Shown: piece by piece, positions 26,027 through 50,464 of the stretch
Numbering within the stretch: position 1 is the stretch's first letter
Layout of the letters: each line of letters opens with the position of its first letter
NCBI GenBank assembly: GCA_031264185.1
Contig: JAISEL010000141.1
Coordinates: 1 to 52,730, forward strand
Origin: Deltaproteobacteria bacterium
Lineage (GTDB): Bacteria; Desulfobacterota; Desulfarculia; Adiutricales; Adiutricaceae
Reading direction: 5' to 3'
DNA length: 52,730 bases
Made by a program: the position numbers and the translations under genes
The notes under the pieces: generated by a model
The model's database searches: none
Told to the model about the DNA's origin: nothing
Seen by the model: only the letters and a program-made list of their open reading frames with translations

Positions 26027-26603
26027 GTACTTCTCTCCTGACCTCCTCTGGTTTAGCCTTTTACTTTACCATTAAACGACTGTTTTTTCAACCAGACTTT
26101 CAAGATCATCAAAATATCGTTAATTTTCCAAAAATTATTCTACTAAAAATATTAACAGAGCAATAAAAATAAAAAAAGATGTATTTAAATCGTATTAATC
26201 TCTAAAGATATATAAATTGCTTATATTAAAGCAATATTCACCAAAACAAACCATTCAGCGATTTGCCGTTCAAAACTTTGGTCTTTTGGCCAGAACATCT
26301 GCCAGCAGCCACAGTCACTGCCTAGCCTCCTCTTCATATTACGCAATCATCTTTAACTTTGGCCTGACCCGGAGGCCGGCACAAATTTTTTATTTGCAGA
26401 TGTTAAATTTCTGGAGATCACTGCCTTAAGACGCGTCAGTCCAAACGTTCAAATCTTCTTGACCGGACAGTAAGGCCGCCCGGGATCTTTCGCCAATTGC
26501 CGATTTTAAAGGAGCAGTAATTAAAGACAATAATGCTGGTGCTAAATTCCTTAACACTGGAGCGGTTATCCCTGAAAGCGCGTCACAGCTGACTGACTTA
26601 TTA
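26027..26603. other. Intergenic region with a possible gene fragment
   Basis: No supported gene. From about 26479 to the left edge of the MITE, one frame is open (RDLSPIADFKGAVIKDNN, then NTGAVIPESASQLTDLL) and its composition looks coding. It has no recognised homologue and no start. It may be a remnant of a gene interrupted at 26603. Confidence 0.35.
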
Positions 26604-26775
26604 ACCCGGCGGATAATTATGATAGATCAAGTATTCCTTATTATTTATAGATTATCACGGTATAATAATTCTTTAACCATACTACAAATAGACTATAGAA
26701 ATTGCATAATTTTTGAGTATGCTAAAGACTGAAGAAACAAAGGATAAACTCTTTTATCAAAATTATCCGCCGGGA
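26604..26775. mobile_element. MITE A, copy 1 (172 bp)
   Basis: The ends are inverted copies: CCCGGCGGATAATTATGATA at the left and its complement (with one interruption) at the right, flanked by TA on both sides (26602-26603 and 26776-26777). It carries no coding capacity and is about 85-90 percent alike by eye to 40941-41113. TA duplications suggest mobilisation by an IS630/Tc1-type transposase, of which only broken relics are seen in this window. Confidence 0.85.
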
Positions 26776-27098
26776 TAATATTTTACGCAAAAGTGAGTAT
26801 TCTGTCCATGAAATGCATCCATTGCTGATATTTAACATTACTGCGGTCTTGAAAACAATTTATAATTACATAACCAGGAGGCTGTCAGCCGCAGTATTGG
26901 ACACCCTTGTTGTGTCCTCCCGCACAGATCTCCAAATAAATATTTTTGCAGATTTTTCATATTTCAAGCGCCAGGGGCCGGGATTCCAAAAATCCATTTC
27001 CATCAGCAAAAGCGCCAGTAAATAACCGCTGCTTTTGACAAAAACCGGAATGACCGGCCCCGGTAAATTGAATAAAGCCTGCCCAGGCCGGTTTTGGC
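26776..27098. other. Intergenic region, no supported gene
   Basis: Starts AT-rich and becomes GC-richer towards the DUF2156 gene. A 70-codon plus-strand frame at 26813-27025 has no ribosome site or family resemblance. Confidence 0.4.
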
Positions 27099-40689: not shown

Positions 40690-40829
40690 TACCCCCCCTT
40701 TTGGTAAAATCCCATTGCACAGAGAATCAATTGAACATTATTTCATCGTGAAAAAGTCCAATAAACATAAATCAGGGTATTCCGTCAAACTACGTGAGGA
40801 TGATCTGGCAACAGAACTGGAACACACTA

Positions 40830-40935
40830 GTGTATCGACGCTTAAATTCGGTTACCTTTTACGTGCCCAAATTTTGTGAGGTTATCCCGCCGTTATCGCT
40901 TAAGGGGGAGTAACCGAATTTTACCGTCGATACAC
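40830..40935. mobile_element. MITE B (106 bp)
   Basis: The ends are inverted repeats of about 26 bp, GTGTATCGACG-CTTAAATTCGGTTAC at the left and its near-complement at 40910-40935 with two or three mismatches. TA lies on each side (40828-40829 and 40936-40937). It has no coding capacity and can fold into a long hairpin. Only one copy is seen here. Confidence 0.75.
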
Positions 40936-40940
40936 TATTA

Positions 40941-41113
40941 ACCCGGCGGATAATTATGATAGATCTAATACTCCTTATTATTTATATACGATCACGGTAT
41001 AGTAATTTTATATCCATACTATAAACAGACTATAGAAGCTGCATAAATCTTTGAGCATGCTGAAGACTGGAGAAACAAAGGATAAACTCTTTTATCATAA
41101 TTATCCGCCGGGC
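40941..41113. mobile_element. MITE A, copy 2 (173 bp)
   Basis: Same element as at 26604-26775, same orientation, with terminal CCCGGCGGATAATTATGATA and its exact complement at the right end. TA flanks are at 40939-40940 and 41114-41115. It lies three bases beyond the TA flank of MITE B, inside the transposase relic. Confidence 0.88.
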
Positions 41114-41333
41114 TAATAGATGGTTCGTACTTATTAGCAATCATATTAAAGACGTACAGAAAGCTTTTGATATTTATAGATTGAAAGACGTTGTCGAAAA
41201 AGGCTTTTGGAAGTATAAAAATAGCCTTGGTCTGGAAAGATTGCGGGTGCATAGTGATATCTGTGCTCATAATAAAAAATTTATTGTTTTTATTGCATTA
41301 ATTATATCTTTTTGCGTCTATAAAATAATGTAA

Positions 41334-41610: not shown

Positions 41611-43374
41611 TCATGAACAAATCAGGGAAGTTAATTCGTTCTTTATTCTGTCCCAGCAAGCATCTTTTTTACACCATTCGGAAATATTAGAAACCCCGGC
41701 GGAAGCCATAATACTCGTATTTACGGCTTCGGCAATTTCTATTATATTTTTTTTAACATCCTCAGGAATGGCTTGTATTTTCCATACAGCTTGAAATATG
41801 GAATCGGTTTGTCCTTGTCGCTTGAGCTTTTCAGCCAAGACAGCCAGAGTATAGGCAACAATATTAGCTCTGTAGCCTCCGTACCAAGGCTGCTTATTGA
41901 TCATTGCTTCTGTTTTACGAAACAGTATGGCACGGGCGATAGACTTCTTAAAAAAAGACTCATTGAATATATCTTGATTTATCTTCCATTCTTTTTCTAT
42001 CCTTTTAGCGAATTCAGCAAAATTTTTTTGCGCCCCTTTATTTACAGAGACAGGACAGCCAAACCACACATTTTCATATTTTCCCAAATCTGTTTTCGAA
42101 ATCAACTGTGATTTGGGATGATCCGTCTGAAATCTTCTCTTTGCGGCAGGCGTCATCTTTGTCTGCTCATCGGCATACTGTCCACGCGCTCGTTCATAGA
42201 ACCAGTATGTTCCATGCAAATTACCAGCAATTGGTGGGGCAGCCACCTGCCTTGACAAACGTTCATATTTAATTTGAAACGGATGGTTTGCATCAAAATC
42301 AGCATCGACTATACGATTTTGTGTATTGGCATATCTCGATATATTTGGAACCACAGTTTCGCTGATTTGACTGGGAACGATGGAAAGTTTCATTTGAACT
42401 GAAACTTTCGATAGATCGGCATTATATTTTCGTTTGGCATACAACAACGACGCAGTGGTTTGACCTCCATTTACGATTTGTAGATCGTTTACTGATTCCA
42501 GCAATAGAAAATTATCTCCTGTTCTTTTCACTTCAACTGATGCAGCAGTAGCGCTTATTCCATTGTTATAGGCAAAAAACATCTGAGGCGAAATTTTAAT
42601 TGTTTCAATAATCCCTTTATTGACTTTTCCACGCGCCTGTAGGAAGCATCTCACATTATTTTCCAACAGTTTGCTGCCGAATTTATCATAAAGACCAGCT
42701 AATACTTCGCCAGGCAATACTGCTAAATAGTATTGACAATTGTCACCAAGGGAAGCGACAGGTAAACAAGGGAGATTGTAGCCAGTAAGATCGGAGAAAG
42801 ATATTTTCAATGGTTCTCGTTCTCCGTTAGATGCCATCATGCGACAAAACCTGGAGATATCCCAGATATGAACATCAACCGATATATTTTGAATGTCAGA
42901 AACGCGTATCGCCCGTTTGGTTCTTACACTCAAGTTCCGTTCTGATAACAGATATAAAGAAACTTTGCTGATATCGGCACGCCGCTCACGGATAAGACGA
43001 CCAAGAACATATTCAGGCGAAGTTTCTTCGAATCCAGTGTAAAAGTCATTCTCTAAACATTTCGAGAAAAAACGTTTAGCTCTGCGAATAATTTTTACAG
43101 CTTCATCATTGTTGATATTATTCAATTGCTCAAGGTCTTCAAAATCGGCAATAAATAAATACAATACCCCATCTTCGGTGAAATCATAGCCGTTGATTTT
43201 AGCCTCTTCTGGTTTAGTGCAGTAACAATACTCAAATCCTTCTATTTCCGCAGCGTCAATCAATTGGTCGGTAAAATAGTGCATAAACTCTTCGGCAGTC
43301 GCTTTGGAGTTAGTGTCAGCCCTGACACTCAAATTCATACGGAAGTCCTGATAAAAATCAGCAAGTGAAGCCAT
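41611..43374 (-). CDS. AIPR (abortive phage infection) family protein
   Basis: 587 residues, last gene of the six-gene operon, starting 3 bases after the stop of the PD-(D/E)XK gene. Family motifs are MFFAYNNGISATA, LQIVNGGQTTASLLYAK and ISRYANTQNRIVDADF in the middle, and YWFYERARGQYADEQTKMTP after them. The AIPR family is named after phage-abortive-infection proteins and recurs in restriction-like operons together with Z1 proteins; its biochemical activity is not settled. No membrane segment or signal peptide. Base composition is more AT-rich than the neighbouring core genes, as in the whole operon. Confidence 0.88.
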   Translation of the reverse strand: MASLADFYQDFRMNLSVRADTNSKATAEEFMHYFTDQLIDAAEIEGFEYCYCTKPEEAKINGYDFTEDGVLYLFIADFEDLEQLNNINNDEAVKIIRRAKRFFSKCLENDFYTGFEETSPEYVLGRLIRERRADISKVSLYLLSERNLSVRTKRAIRVSDIQNISVDVHIWDISRFCRMMASNGEREPLKISFSDLTGYNLPCLPVASLGDNCQYYLAVLPGEVLAGLYDKFGSKLLENNVRCFLQARGKVNKGIIETIKISPQMFFAYNNGISATAASVEVKRTGDNFLLLESVNDLQIVNGGQTTASLLYAKRKYNADLSKVSVQMKLSIVPSQISETVVPNISRYANTQNRIVDADFDANHPFQIKYERLSRQVAAPPIAGNLHGTYWFYERARGQYADEQTKMTPAAKRRFQTDHPKSQLISKTDLGKYENVWFGCPVSVNKGAQKNFAEFAKRIEKEWKINQDIFNESFFKKSIARAILFRKTEAMINKQPWYGGYRANIVAYTLAVLAEKLKRQGQTDSIFQAVWKIQAIPEDVKKNIIEIAEAVNTSIMASAGVSNISEWCKKDACWDRIKNELTSLICS

Positions 43375-43377
43375 TGG

Positions 43378-44346
43378 TTACTCTTTGCATAATGTTTCAT
43401 CATCGAAAGTAAATGAATCTATTGATTCAAGAGAAATATCATACAGTACATTGAATACGCCAGCCGGTAAAGTTGAACGTACAAGTCTCGGGAAATTATC
43501 AGTCACGAGATAAATAAGCTGCTCCGGACATTTAAAATTTGGAAAATTATAAAATGGCAGCGGTGAATAGGAAAGAGAGTTTAGCTTCATATCAAAAACA
43601 GCCTCGTCATCGGCAAGCGAGATTTGTAACCGAAGGTCCATTATCAGGCTGTTTAAGGAAAAAGAGGCCGCGTCTTTATCAACTTCAATCAATCTGAAAA
43701 TCTTCAAAAAAAGTTTTGACTGAATTGTTTCAAGCTGGTCTTCAGAAGAAATTCTTATCTTTCCCCTTTCCCGGCCAAAAAGAGTTTTAATCTCAACAGC
43801 CGTATCTCCAACTACAAAATCCTGATTGCCGCCATTAGGGCCAATCCATGATTCAAGAGATTTTCCCACACTATATCCAGCCTGTATCATCTGCCGTAAA
43901 AATAACAGTTCGCCGATCAGTCCTCGCACTTGCTGTGGTGTTAAAAGACTTCGACCTCCAGATAAAAAATTCTTCCAGCGACGAATATGTTGAAAAGTTG
44001 CAATAACTACTCCATATGAATTTTCAGTTGTTTTAATGGCACTAGTCAGAGCACAGCAAAAATCAAAAAAAATATCGCTGTTAGTTGCTGATTCCAAAAA
44101 AAGTACCAGACACTGCCGTCCTGCTTCTTCATAGGGTCGTAAATCCGTCTTTAGTCCTTTTATATGAATGATGCTTTTGTTATAAATATCTCTCTGATCT
44201 CCGTCCAAACTGATAATCAGCATTTTGGTATTGTCGCCGTCTTTGCCCCAAAAGATATCGCCAGTTTTGTGGTCATCATGTTTTCGAACATGAATGCCGG
44301 ATATCGGGCGCGAGATATCCAGCCAAGGATTTCTCTCGTCATTCAT
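43378..44346 (-). CDS. PD-(D/E)XK motif nuclease-like protein
   Basis: 322 residues from ATG 44346, which overlaps the end of the Z1 gene by 8 bases (ATGAATGA), a typical coupling. A start seven codons earlier (44367) is possible. The nuclease core appears as RGLIGELLFLRQMI (Glu), then NQDFVVGDTAVEIKTLFG, giving the E-x(n)-D-x(n)-E-x-K pattern with EIK as the catalytic end. This matches the PD-(D/E)XK-motif proteins that accompany Z1 and AIPR genes in restriction-like operons. It is likely the DNA-cutting subunit, but that is inferred from the motif. Confidence 0.82.
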   Translation of the reverse strand: MNDERNPWLDISRPISGIHVRKHDDHKTGDIFWGKDGDNTKMLIISLDGDQRDIYNKSIIHIKGLKTDLRPYEEAGRQCLVLFLESATNSDIFFDFCCALTSAIKTTENSYGVVIATFQHIRRWKNFLSGGRSLLTPQQVRGLIGELLFLRQMIQAGYSVGKSLESWIGPNGGNQDFVVGDTAVEIKTLFGRERGKIRISSEDQLETIQSKLFLKIFRLIEVDKDAASFSLNSLIMDLRLQISLADDEAVFDMKLNSLSYSPLPFYNFPNFKCPEQLIYLVTDNFPRLVRSTLPAGVFNVLYDISLESIDSFTFDDETLCKE

Positions 44347-47047
44347 CGTCAAACCCCGTATTGTCATAATCGCCGAAATCTTCTTTCATTTGTTGCAGCC
44401 AAATCTGATTTACCACAACATCAACTGACTTATCGAATTCTCCGCGAGGAAAGCTGACACTAAAAGCAGGAGCCATATTATTAAGCATATCATTTTTTTC
44501 GTCACAATTGATCAAATGAAGCATCAAAAGAGGTTTATCTCTAACTGTTCTATAATCAGCATCTGAAGCCTTTCTTCCATCAGAACTGGCATTTGACTCA
44601 GCCAGATGGATTTGGTCATTGGTTAGTCCGAGTTTTTCATCATTGCGGCTAGCAACTCTGTTTTTTGTAAGACGCCATACATCGTCATTGTAGTTGCCTG
44701 ATTTATTTCTTCGGAGTTGATATCCAAGAGGGTATTCATCTCCATATGGTTTATTGGCTTCGAGTGAAATAAACAAAACATCACCCGAGTCATATCTGGA
44801 GGAAATAATCTCAAGAAAATCTAGGACAGCAGTTTTCAATACCCCAAGTTCCGGACAGACAATAAATTGGCGCAAAAATTTATCCATTTCCTGCAAAGGA
44901 ACATCCCTGACGATCCATCCCTTGGAATTGGCCGTGACACCGCCGGGGCAGGCCTGCTCAACGTTATTTGCTCCAAGACTACACCCAGTTTCAAGATAAT
45001 CTTTTATCAGTTGCCGATTAAAACAGTTGGTTTTTACATCATGCGGTAGCAAATAAGATTCTCTCAACTGCCCGGAGAGATTCCAGCGCATGGTTACATT
45101 TACGCCATCTTTCATTTTACCAGGAGCTGTGATCATTAAACTGTCGGCAGAATTGCGTACATACAGTCCGAAGTCTCTGGGGTTACATTTTTTTTGCCGC
45201 ATGATGACAATTTGCTGTCTCAAATCATCAGTCGCAACGGCTATATGATTATACCAGTTAATAGACTGCCCGTTCAGCCATACCGTGCAAATATCATCAT
45301 AACCATCACGATAGCCGAACCAGCGCCCCATTTGCATTAATGTGTCATACATTCGAGTATTGCGATACATATAGCTGGTGCAAAGGCCTTCAAGCGTCAA
45401 TCCGCGAGAGAGGCTTACCCCGCCAACCGCCAATACTGTCCGCCCGACGTTGTAACCGTCATAGTCAAGCAGCTCATCCGAGCCACTGTTAATAAGCAGA
45501 ATATCAATGGAATCAACAGCCGTGAACAAAGCTCCTTTAACGCTTTCCCATGATTCAGTTAATGGTTCATTATGCCTAGCTTTAAAAAATTTAATAAAAA
45601 TATCCTCCAGACACGCCAAATCATTATTTTTACGCGCTTCGTCAGTTGAAAGTTTGTAATTAAGCTGTATCGCATTTTTTAAATTTTGAACATAATCGCG
45701 AATGATATTCCTTGCTTCCTGCTGGACTTTTGTGAATCGTGAAACATTTACCAACATAGAAGCATGAAATTTCCCCTGCTCCCGTACTTCCCTGATCGCC
45801 CTAGACAGAATAAATACGTTGATTGCCTCATGAAGAGATGGTGGCAATCCGTTTTGAAAGTTGAAGTGTTTATTGTGTTTCAGGGGGACAAAATGTTCCG
45901 CATCCTGGATTTCGACAAGTATCCTGCTGCTGTAATCATCATCAATAAAAACTTTATCAGGCCCGAAGTATGTACTAGGGGCATCAAGCCAGTATATGAA
46001 ATCTCTGGGAAAAAGATCATCACCAATGTTGAGAACATTTGCGTCAGGATTAATAAAAATATTAGCAAATGGAGTGGCTGTATAGCCGACATAACTTGAT
46101 TTACTGAAAGTAGCCAAGATTCGCCGCAGAAGTGAATTTGTTTTGGTCGGATCTGTTTCAGAGTTATTGGTGTTTATGGAGGCATTATCCGCTTCATCAT
46201 CAACCATTAATAAAGGGACGTCTTCAATCGTCCCATCACCTTTGGCATTAAGTTCTTTCAGCCACTTTAAAAGATTATTCAGGGTTGTAACGTTCTTTTT
46301 TATAACCACTACCAACGGTTTACTGAAGTCATTTATTTTCCAGCCGCTCTGATTAGCAGTTCTTTTGTTAAAGTCTTCATCTTCCGTCGTCAAGGTTACC
46401 GGATAAGGATGCTCAGTTTCCCCACGTTGAATGGCCAATTCACCTACACCGGTTGCTTTATTTTTTCGTTGCTGATTGCTGGAACGACCGATAAATCCGT
46501 CTTCAACACGTTGTTGAGTTTGCTGTCGAAGACTGTTATGAATACCAGCAATTATTATTATGAACTTGTACCCGGCATCAGCCGCTTTTGTAACCAGTCC
46601 CAGATAGTTTGCCGTTTTTCCTGACTGCACCTGTCCAATAACAAGTCCACGTCGATCCCATTTTCCATCTGAATGTGGGTCTTGTAAATGGCCAAGAATT
46701 TTATGGGTTGATTTATCAATTGCTGAAATAACGGCAGGTGACCAGTTCTTGTGTTTCAGGTATTGTTTGTAAGCTTCAGAATAGACCAATACAATATTAC
46801 GTTTTCCAACCCATTGTTCATCATGGTCGGCATCCTGATTAACGAGTGACACGCCTAAGCTCATTTTTGTATCGAATCTTTTTAAAACGGTATCGATCAC
46901 AAAGTCCGGTGAGCCTGTGAAATTAAGCGATTCGGCCAGTTTACGCACCAGCTTTGAAACCTCAGTATATTCAGGAACTGAGTATCTATCTGAATATACC
47001 GTCATAATGATATTGACAAATTTTTCCTGAGTAGTCGGATCATACAT
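44339..47047 (-). CDS. Z1-domain P-loop ATPase (SF2 helicase-like)
   Basis: 902 residues, starting one base after the GHKL gene stop. Walker A is GQVQSGKT at 138-145, with RRGLVIGQVQSGKTANYLGL as the family phrase. Walker B is DDEAD at 283-287 (LLMVDDEADNAS). A helicase-like motif follows (SSYVGYTATPFANIFINP), and the Z1 hallmark is GGVSLSRGLTLEGL then YDTLMQMGRWFGYRDGYDD, which carries an arginine-finger-type motif. Z1 proteins are the ATP-driven motor of predicted restriction systems; strand separation or translocation is assumed, not shown. It is the largest gene of the operon. Confidence 0.93.
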   Translation of the reverse strand: MYDPTTQEKFVNIIMTVYSDRYSVPEYTEVSKLVRKLAESLNFTGSPDFVIDTVLKRFDTKMSLGVSLVNQDADHDEQWVGKRNIVLVYSEAYKQYLKHKNWSPAVISAIDKSTHKILGHLQDPHSDGKWDRRGLVIGQVQSGKTANYLGLVTKAADAGYKFIIIIAGIHNSLRQQTQQRVEDGFIGRSSNQQRKNKATGVGELAIQRGETEHPYPVTLTTEDEDFNKRTANQSGWKINDFSKPLVVVIKKNVTTLNNLLKWLKELNAKGDGTIEDVPLLMVDDEADNASINTNNSETDPTKTNSLLRRILATFSKSSYVGYTATPFANIFINPDANVLNIGDDLFPRDFIYWLDAPSTYFGPDKVFIDDDYSSRILVEIQDAEHFVPLKHNKHFNFQNGLPPSLHEAINVFILSRAIREVREQGKFHASMLVNVSRFTKVQQEARNIIRDYVQNLKNAIQLNYKLSTDEARKNNDLACLEDIFIKFFKARHNEPLTESWESVKGALFTAVDSIDILLINSGSDELLDYDGYNVGRTVLAVGGVSLSRGLTLEGLCTSYMYRNTRMYDTLMQMGRWFGYRDGYDDICTVWLNGQSINWYNHIAVATDDLRQQIVIMRQKKCNPRDFGLYVRNSADSLMITAPGKMKDGVNVTMRWNLSGQLRESYLLPHDVKTNCFNRQLIKDYLETGCSLGANNVEQACPGGVTANSKGWIVRDVPLQEMDKFLRQFIVCPELGVLKTAVLDFLEIISSRYDSGDVLFISLEANKPYGDEYPLGYQLRRNKSGNYNDDVWRLTKNRVASRNDEKLGLTNDQIHLAESNASSDGRKASDADYRTVRDKPLLMLHLINCDEKNDMLNNMAPAFSVSFPRGEFDKSVDVVVNQIWLQQMKEDFGDYDNTGFDDE

Positions 47048-47048
47048 T

Positions 47049-48503
47049 TCATGCCTCTTTACTTATTTTGCTCAACAGGTCATCGCGGCCTGATAGTCCT
47101 GGAATGATTTTTACCATCGAAAGAAAATCATTCCATCCACATCCACTCTCAATGCAGACAGCATGGTAAAGTTCATTAAGCTTGTTCAGTAGCACATCAT
47201 CCGGTTCCACGCCGGTCTCTATCGAATTCGGATCTGAGGAAAACTCTGAATAAATCAAATTAACCGGCAATTGTCTGACAACAGCATCCAGATAATTTTT
47301 AAACAGTTGTCGATCTGTGCCATCAAGGGCAGTCAAGACTTTTTGAAGAAGGGGATGATTTCTGTTCAAATCAAAAAATACTTTCCCCGATGCGGCCCTT
47401 CTTTCCCAAATTGTGTGGCTCTTGTCAGGATTAACCTCAGCTATCGCCTGCCCGCGTCTTTTAAAAATTCTGGAACTACTTTCCAAAACTCCAGGAAGAA
47501 GTCGAGACAATTGTTTGCGAACATCAACATGTAGGCGGGTTTTCGATTTTTTGATATCAATTACCCAGTAGTCATCCTGGTCGCTTGAAAAATCAACCTG
47601 TATTCTTGCCAGTTTCGTAATTTCGCTTCGACTTGCCGTTGACAACCACGTTCCCCAAATCAGCAGCCGTTTATTTCGGTAAACATAGATCCCCTGATTA
47701 TCATAAAAATTACTTATTTTGTTGTAAAATGAATATTCAGATTTCGTCAGTTTTGTATAATGAGGGAGAACAAAAGGTGTAATTTTTACTCTTGCCCCGG
47801 CGATTGCTACATATTCAGGCGCAAAATGCTGTGTCGCCTGATATTTGCGGCAGAAAGGATCAAAACATTCTACCTGCTTGCCGTTGATTTTAATTTCTAA
47901 TTTTTTGCCGGTGGCTTCACCATCAAGAAATCGATGAAAAACGAGACTGAGATGATGCTCAAGCGCTGCTATTTCAGCTGACACAGCTTTTGCATCAAGC
48001 CGGTCTAATTTTCGCCACAAAACAAGTGTACCACTTTTCGGGAGACAATCAAGCAGCGGTATTTTTGCGATCTCCATTCCGTTGTGGAGAGTTAAAAGCC
48101 ACTTGTCCGTCCGGTCAATCTCATCCAGATCTTGAGTCACGGCAACGATCTTACCGTCCTGCCTGGAAGCGACTGTAAGCATCCGACACTGTGAGTAAGT
48201 GGCTGTTTTTAACCCCAATCCGAATTTACCAAGATCGCTGCTCCTACGCCGATTGTCTTTTACTGAAGAGCCAAGCCTCATGGCTTGTTGAAGGGATGCT
48301 TCATCCATGCCAATGCCATCATCAACGACTGCTATGATGTTCTCTCCATTAATTTCGCGAAAATGTACATCAACCATACCGGCACAGGCACTTATTGAAT
48401 TATCAATAAGGTCAGCAATAGCCGTATCAAGTGAATACCCGATATCCCTCATGGATGATGAAAGAGCAGCGGCTCCAGGTGGATGCTCTATTTTATGTCC
48501 CAT
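47049..48503 (-). CDS. GHKL (HSP90/MutL/MORC-like) ATPase
   Basis: 484 residues from ATG 48503, which overlaps the vsr stop by one base (TGATG). An in-frame TTG one codon earlier is less likely. The Bergerat fold motifs are all visible near the N-terminus: N-box DTAIADLIDNSISA, G1 VVDDGIGMDEA, and G2 LGKFGLGLKTAT. Residues about 230-330 include IYVYRNKRLLIWGTW and the basic KLARIQVDFSS region, like the second domain of MutL/MORC proteins. Such ATPases dimerise on nucleotide binding and act as DNA clamps. MutL/MORC-like ATPases in restriction-modification neighbourhoods are a recognised theme. There is no fused nuclease. Confidence 0.88.
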   Translation of the reverse strand: MGHKIEHPPGAAALSSSMRDIGYSLDTAIADLIDNSISACAGMVDVHFREINGENIIAVVDDGIGMDEASLQQAMRLGSSVKDNRRRSSDLGKFGLGLKTATYSQCRMLTVASRQDGKIVAVTQDLDEIDRTDKWLLTLHNGMEIAKIPLLDCLPKSGTLVLWRKLDRLDAKAVSAEIAALEHHLSLVFHRFLDGEATGKKLEIKINGKQVECFDPFCRKYQATQHFAPEYVAIAGARVKITPFVLPHYTKLTKSEYSFYNKISNFYDNQGIYVYRNKRLLIWGTWLSTASRSEITKLARIQVDFSSDQDDYWVIDIKKSKTRLHVDVRKQLSRLLPGVLESSSRIFKRRGQAIAEVNPDKSHTIWERRAASGKVFFDLNRNHPLLQKVLTALDGTDRQLFKNYLDAVVRQLPVNLIYSEFSSDPNSIETGVEPDDVLLNKLNELYHAVCIESGCGWNDFLSMVKIIPGLSGRDDLLSKISKEA

Positions 48504-48919
48504 CAAGCACCAGCCTTTAATTTCCCTATGATTCCATACAATATCTTTTGTGGACTCTTCTTTAATTCACATTCCCAAACTATAATTATTTTCCAGCCTG
48601 CATCGGACAATACACGGACATTTTTCATATCCCGCACGACATTGCCATCCAGTTTTTTTTTCCAAAAATCTACTCTTGTTTTTGGCAAAACAGAATTAAT
48701 GCAACCATTATGCCTATGCCAAAAGCAGCCATGCACGAAAATAATAGTTCTATATTTCTTCAACACCAAATCAGGGCAACCAGGGAGCTTTTTATCATAC
48801 AACCTATAACGAAATCCAGCCCGATGAAGCATGGACCGTAGTGCTTTTTCCGGCCCCGTATTTTTGCTCCGAATGCGTGACATATTCCAACTTCTTTTAT
48901 CCTGTGATATATTGTCCAC
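48503..48919 (-). CDS. vsr: Very short patch repair (Vsr-type) endonuclease
   Basis: 138 residues, full length. Catalytic features are LPGCPDLVLKKY (Asp50), FVHGCFWHRHNGC (zinc/active-site His and Cys) and the terminal WKIIIVWECEL; the start SWNMSRIRSKNTGPEKALRS is also diagnostic. The known role is nicking next to T:G mismatches made by deamination of 5-methylcytosine. It begins 6 bases after the methyltransferase stop and overlaps the GHKL gene start, so the three are tightly coupled. Vsr-fold proteins can also act as restriction nucleases, which cannot be excluded. Confidence 0.95.
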   Translation of the reverse strand: MDNISQDKRSWNMSRIRSKNTGPEKALRSMLHRAGFRYRLYDKKLPGCPDLVLKKYRTIIFVHGCFWHRHNGCINSVLPKTRVDFWKKKLDGNVVRDMKNVRVLSDAGWKIIIVWECELKKSPQKILYGIIGKLKAGA

Positions 48920-48925
48920 TGCTTT

Positions 48926-50464
48926 TTATCCTTTAATTCGATTTAAAACACCAGCCACAACGGACGCGATCTGCTTTGCCAATGCAGGAGGGACGGCATT
49001 TCCAATTTGCAAATAGCAGGCACTTCTTGACCCTTCAAAGTGATAATTATCAGGAAAAGTTTGTAACCTAGCCGCCTCTCTAACTGTAAGACTCCTGCAC
49101 TGCTCTGGATCATAGTGGATAAAATAGTGTCCATCTTTGGCGATATGTGATGTTACAGTTGTTGCCTCACTGTCAGCGAGTTGAACCTTAAAGCGATCAT
49201 CAAAAGCAAGGACTGCAAGTCCACTTTGCACATTTTTATGAGCTGGATGCAAGAATTCAGGGAAATCTTTAAGTTTTGGACTTTTGCCAACCACCTCGGA
49301 AAAGACGCTGGCAAATAGATACCTGTGTAGATCAGAGGCCATGTGAGCTCGTGCTTCATGCCCGGGAATAGCAACCATATTTGAATCGTAAAGGTTCTTG
49401 ATCGTAGGGTGTATATCGCCATGAACTTGCAGCTCATATTTGGTACTGATATGAGACAGTTCTTTTGTCTTTATCAGCTCCAAAACATCCCGCACCCGAC
49501 CTATGATTCTGTCCGAAAAAACAGTTTTGGGTAGCTCACTGTCAAGTCGGGCAAGATTAAATTTGGAAATCGACAAGCGCCAGTTTTTAAGGCTATCTGG
49601 CTCTTTGGACAAAGTACTTCTTATTGGCGGCAGATCGCCTATGGCATCTTTAACTGATGGCGCTTTTGACCGTACAAGGCATTCAGGGTTTACCTTCAAA
49701 TTTTCACAGATGCCAAGTATAAAAATGCGGTGCCGAGCCTGAGGTATGCCATATTCTTCGGCATTGACCGTAAACAGAGCCGGATTTTTTTCGAAAGTAA
49801 TCTCCCCTTTTTCAGTAAAAGAATATAAACGATAGCGTAGTCCATTGGCATGGCCTTTAGTCGCCTTTAATGGAGAATGCAAATCTGCCAAAATTCTGTC
49901 AAGTATGTTCTTGTTGTTAACTTTGGCTGATAGCAAACCCGTCACGTTCTCCATCACAAAAACTGGAGGGTGATGCGTGGTGATGAAGTTCAAGTATTCT
50001 TCATAGAGGAAATGTTTTTGGTCTACCGCAAAACGAGGGTCGTTTTTCCTTCTTGAACGGCCGATCAAGGAATAGGCCTGACAGGGAGGGCCTCCAACGA
50101 GAACCCACCTCCTGGATCGGCCAAGCTTTTTTTTGACTATTTCTGTCAGCAATTTTCTGTTGTTTTCCTCTAAAGACAACTTTAAGGCTGTTCCGGCAGC
50201 TTTACTAACCTTAATTTTATGCTCATTATAAAAAACATCCAAGGAGATGCGGCCAGTAATATAGTCATAATACTCATCCGGATATTCATTGTCATTAAAC
50301 TGTCGTAAAACATGCCGCAAGACCAATGTTTTATGAGCGAATTCTTCACATTCAACAGACAAAAAACTCGTAAAGGCCGGTTTATTATCGTCATTTTTTA
50401 AGCTGGCAAACCCTTCTCCCAATCCTCCAGGACCAGCGAATATATCAATTACAGGAAAGGCCAT
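48926..50464 (-). CDS. dcm: DNA (cytosine-5-)-methyltransferase
   Basis: 512 residues. The C5-methylase motifs are in order: I (VIDIFAGPGGLGEGF), IV (VGGPPCQAYSLIG, catalytic Cys128), VI (FVMENVTGLLSAK), VIII (QARHRIFILGI), IX (REAARLQTFPD) and X (YLQIGNAVPP). The stretch between motifs I and IV is about 40-50 residues longer than in small Dcm/HhaI-type enzymes. It is the first gene of the operon, with AGGA about eight bases before its ATG. It would mark self DNA; the target sequence cannot be told from here. It forms a Dcm-Vsr pair with the next gene. Confidence 0.96.
   Translation of the reverse strand: MAFPVIDIFAGPGGLGEGFASLKNDDNKPAFTSFLSVECEEFAHKTLVLRHVLRQFNDNEYPDEYYDYITGRISLDVFYNEHKIKVSKAAGTALKLSLEENNRKLLTEIVKKKLGRSRRWVLVGGPPCQAYSLIGRSRRKNDPRFAVDQKHFLYEEYLNFITTHHPPVFVMENVTGLLSAKVNNKNILDRILADLHSPLKATKGHANGLRYRLYSFTEKGEITFEKNPALFTVNAEEYGIPQARHRIFILGICENLKVNPECLVRSKAPSVKDAIGDLPPIRSTLSKEPDSLKNWRLSISKFNLARLDSELPKTVFSDRIIGRVRDVLELIKTKELSHISTKYELQVHGDIHPTIKNLYDSNMVAIPGHEARAHMASDLHRYLFASVFSEVVGKSPKLKDFPEFLHPAHKNVQSGLAVLAFDDRFKVQLADSEATTVTSHIAKDGHYFIHYDPEQCRSLTVREAARLQTFPDNYHFEGSRSACYLQIGNAVPPALAKQIASVVAGVLNRIKG

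Follow-up and report, generated by a model that had tools for sequence, protein, structure and literature searches.

Two IS630-type MITEs in an IS1634-family transposase relic beside rlmE

Known relatives and organization of the locus

The IS630/Tc1-mariner family and its MITEs, as known from IS630 of Shigella sonnei and from ISY100, duplicate a target TA upon insertion. IS630 of Shigella is reported to prefer a TA embedded in CTAG (Tenzen and Ohtsubo 1991, as cited in PMC2170065). The two MITEs described here lie in a 52,730-nucleotide stretch of a deltaproteobacterial contig (hereafter, the window). They likewise duplicate TA, appear to be short internal-deletion derivatives, as are known in this family, and have full-length relatives encoding a DDE_3 transposase, a Pfam domain of the IS630/Tc1-mariner group. 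Compared with known members, they have sequences peculiar to this lineage. The gene they interrupt belongs to the IS1634 family (IS4 superfamily) and retains the conserved C-terminal helix of that family (YRxKDVVEKxF...LxxLRVHSD). Unlike IS1634-family members, it is truncated N-terminally, stops well before the end of its relatives and is split by the two MITEs. We are highly confident that the locus as a whole is explained by an IS1634-family relic hit at one TA by two IS630-type MITEs, probably B and then A. The features are as follows.

40721-40829, plus strand: left piece of the relic, ending in the target TA (40828-40829); 91/109 identical to contig C74 of the same genome (C74:47987-48095)
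40828-40829: TA, left target duplication of MITE B
40830-40935: MITE B, 106 bp, an inverted repeat with ends GTGTATCGACG/CGTCGATACAC, which align with an IS630-type element
40936-40937: TA common to both elements, being the right duplication of B and the left duplication of A
40938-41116: MITE A, 179 bp, ends TTAACCCGGCGGATAATTATGATA / TATCATAATTATCCGCCGGGCTAA, with boundaries taken from 36 copies
41117-41118: TA, right target duplication of MITE A
41119-41333, plus strand: right piece of the relic, ending with a TAA stop (41331-41333); 183/212 identical to C74, in the register of the left piece
26601-26778: second MITE A copy in the window, 178 bp, intergenic, 88% identical, with TA on both sides

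The order at the locus is relic-TA-B-TA-A-TA-relic, and A directly abuts B. The earlier note, made from the sequence of the window, had described two inverted-repeat elements, each between TA dinucleotides, and both are present: the arms at B (40828-40855/40910-40937) span 28 nt with 93% identity, and those at A (40935-40961/41093-41119) span 27 nt with 96% identity.

Excising both MITEs opens the reading frame, as the note had proposed, and the joined sequence encodes the C-terminus of a transposase, with homology crossing the seam. In a profile search, NCBIfam NF033559, the model for IS1634 family transposases, hits the joined fragment with an E value of 1.9e-11; the match falls short of the whole-protein cut-off, as expected for 106 residues. 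The double label IS4/IS1634 given to the relic thus narrows to IS1634. An intact 530-residue relative in another genome of the same family matches NF033559 with an E value of 2.1e-57, and intact relatives of 529 to 608 residues are found in many genomes of that family. Only the last ~100 residues of the transposase are left in the window; the relic has neither a complete DDE catalytic domain nor terminal repeats. Homology of the left piece starts at AGAGAATCAATTG, 31 bases beyond the start codon of rlmE, and an old IS1634-family insertion sequence would have decayed here to the C-terminal end adjoining that gene. Both MITE insertions postdate the IS1634 copy, in agreement with the relative dating in the earlier note.

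The nearest named relatives of the window rlmE are found in metagenome-assembled genomes of Deltaproteobacteria and Candidatus Adiutrix and in strain Smac51. In one related genome (record L154, 83-601 and 1018-1539), two extra rlmE-like genes, 40% and 47% identical, precede rlmE. The relic is also adjoined by a five-gene Mza-type defence system (41611-50464, minus strand) encoding a C5 cytosine methylase, a GHKL ATPase (MzaB), a Z1 protein (MzaC), a PD-(D/E)XK DUF4420 protein (MzaD) and an AIPR protein (MzaE).

The two MITEs and their families

MITE B keeps the boundaries originally assigned to it. A single full copy is present in the genome, and partial relatives occur on contigs C44 and C77. 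The left ~55 bases and the right 41 bases of B align to the left and right ends, respectively, of a 1664-bp element (C74:115975-117638) that carries DDE_3 coding pieces (E 3.1e-13). Having termini derived from the two ends of an IS630-type element, MITE B is, judged from this alignment, an internal-deletion form of an IS630-type element.

MITE A is far more abundant, with ~40 genomic copies of 177-179 bp. The earlier note had placed it at 40941-41113. In 36/36 A-type copies examined, TTA and TAA (or a near variant) lie outside those ends, with TA beyond them, in the arrangement TA-TTA...TAA-TA. The element is therefore 40938-41116 and reads TTAACCCGG...GGGCTAA, flanked by a duplicated target TA. 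Independent support for this type of boundary comes from a second empty-site comparison: a 99-bp element of the A-repeat class interrupts the B-family element at C44, and alignment with the uninterrupted C74 copy places TTA...TAA inside the 99-bp element.

The nearest copy of MITE A (C38:16792-16970) is 97% identical, and the insertion at the window locus is therefore probably recent. With up to 3 mismatches, the A repeat has 321 matches in the genome compared with 0 for a reversed control, which indicates that elements of several lengths share it, among them classes of 89, 99 and 178 bp. Full-length elements of 1209-1210 bp on C94 and C111 carry the same terminal inverted repeat and encode a DDE_3 transposase. 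Similarity between the interior of MITE A and the 1210-bp elements is weak and confined to the left side (for one element the internal score is 60, with 52 as the highest value after shuffling, and for the other 49, with 51 as the highest); no similarity to these elements was found in the right interior. To judge by the common repeats, MITE A belongs to a large family of IS630-derived elements in this genome.

A search of 97 related genomes, of which six belong to the same genus, found no member of the MITE A family. The public genome and viral collections searched, which may not include this genome itself, contained no exact copy of the 20-base repeat. A 1417-bp sequence (C39:38563-39979) was considered as a full-length partner of A and rejected, as it is an A copy (bases 164-1580 of C39:38400-40150) with a nested 1236-bp IS630-type element. 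The nested element, with ends TTACCACGGCACG, lies at a TA, and its removal restores a 179-bp A copy. The A repeat also occurs ~100 bases from the contig end (about bases 92-127) in C5, C36, C41, C57, C66, C79, C86, C125, C139, C145 and others; MITEs with this repeat probably broke the assembly at many contig ends.

Target site and order of insertion

Because A abuts B with a single common TA at 40936-40937, both elements entered one TA, inside CTAG. When B (40830-40935) and A (40938-41116) are removed and a single TA is kept, the corrected empty site is GAACACACTAGATGGTTC, whose TA lies in CTAG. The note had instead postulated two sites at most 11 bases apart and had read a preferred target from that spacing. 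As both elements used the same TA, the spacing disappears, and the sequence context of the B family is the better ground for a target preference.

TA duplication in a CTAG context was found for the B family at four loci. The base preceding TA is C and the base following it is G in 6/6 readable flank bases (in the window and at C74 both flanks are readable, at C44 and C77 a single flank), the same target as that of IS630 of Shigella. Six such bases are expected by chance with p ~0.0002, a value to be read with the shared ancestry of these loci as elements in mind, as they are not fully independent. The A family has no significant preference of this kind: CTAG is found at 2 of the 35 sites that could be read, where the background is 1.1% (p 0.057), and its sites lean to ATAA and ATAT contexts.

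The codons ACT AGA TGG of the relic align with GCT GGA TGG-type codons of its relatives, and the corresponding target in C74 reads CTGG. Hence, CTAG must have arisen in the lineage of the relic or been lost in C74. The missense change that creates CTAG, GGA to AGA, replaces a glycine that the relatives conserve and suggests that the relic may already have been decaying before the insertions.

The first base of MITE B is G and its last is C, so that CTAG is rebuilt at each of its junctions. In the proposed course of events, ACT AGA TGG in the relic would have supplied a CTAG, and the 106-bp MITE B would have inserted at its TA, leaving CTAG at each junction. The 179-bp MITE A would then have inserted at the TA of the right-hand junction of B. 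TA would have been duplicated at each insertion, and both MITEs were presumably mobilised in trans by IS630-family transposases.

The flanks suggest, from sequence context, that B entered first. In the reverse order, the TA of CTAG would first have received A, and B would have followed at the left-hand TA of A. That junction does contain a TA, which alone suffices for IS630-type transposition. However, it reads CTAT, and B would have had to enter CTAT, unlike every readable B-family flank (C-TA-G). We therefore prefer B followed by A and regard the reverse order as unlikely, though it is the most serious of the alternatives.

Head-to-tail stacking occurs elsewhere in the genome. At C76:17245-17815 (bases 88-374), two elements of the A-repeat class abut with one common TA, as in the window. 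This is the one clear further case (C76:17429-17450). Scattering 160 elements over TA sites at random would give ~0.1 such cases; as the elements avoid genes, the true expectation exceeds 0.1, and no preference is claimed. Since the terminal G and C of B-type elements rebuild CTAG at both junctions, IS630-type MITEs might conceivably serve as landing pads for later TA-specific elements, favouring head-to-tail stacking at common TAs, an idea that we consider doubtful.

The paralogous empty site

An uninterrupted version of the relic is present in the same genome. The best match, C74:47984-48307, is 78% identical, spans both flanks and joins them directly, and it is unbroken except for one TAG. 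With the corrected boundaries, the flanks match C74 ungapped, with an identity of 0.83 on the left and 0.86 on the right (the latter counted over 41119-41330 at offset 0). All remaining offsets from -12 to +12 yield only 0.22-0.36. In ten related records, the region upstream of rlmE was checked and showed no such relic; the empty site is consequently represented by a paralogue only, and not by an orthologous locus.

This match also bears on the integrity of the contig. The genome is a 166-contig assembly in which joins at repeats carry some risk, MITE A has ~40 copies, and several contigs end beside its inverted repeat; the locus could thus be a chimeric join at MITE A. The two flanks align with a single paralogue without a break and in the same register, which is not expected of a random join, and an assembly artefact is very improbable.

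The seam likewise decides against the junction originally drawn, in which A spans 40941-41113, the two TA sites are distinct and the ancestral protein reads ...LEHTINRWF.... That joined frame is open, and TA is present at its boundaries. However, it retains six bases of MITE A, namely TTA from the left end and TAA from the right, read across the TA. The resulting codons (I-N) have no counterpart in the paralogue on C74 or in five intact relatives of the same family, where the alignment shows a gap, and the 6-base shift breaks the ungapped match. Taken with the 36 A-type copies, this leaves the version with hardly any credibility. Equally implausible is the arrival of B and A as one composite unit, which their adjacency at a single common TA might suggest: the outer ends are unlike each other (GTGT... 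and ...CTAA), the genome holds no second full B copy and no other B-A pair, and no B stands beside the nearest A copies.

Two successive insertions at one TA, B probably before A, account for the locus. It is a clean, datable instance of IS630-type MITEs stacked by insertion, for which the same genome supplies an uninterrupted paralogue as the empty site. It also settles where the members of an abundant MITE family in this lineage truly begin and end. These are ordinary features of bacterial mobile-element biology, and the general view of such elements is unchanged.
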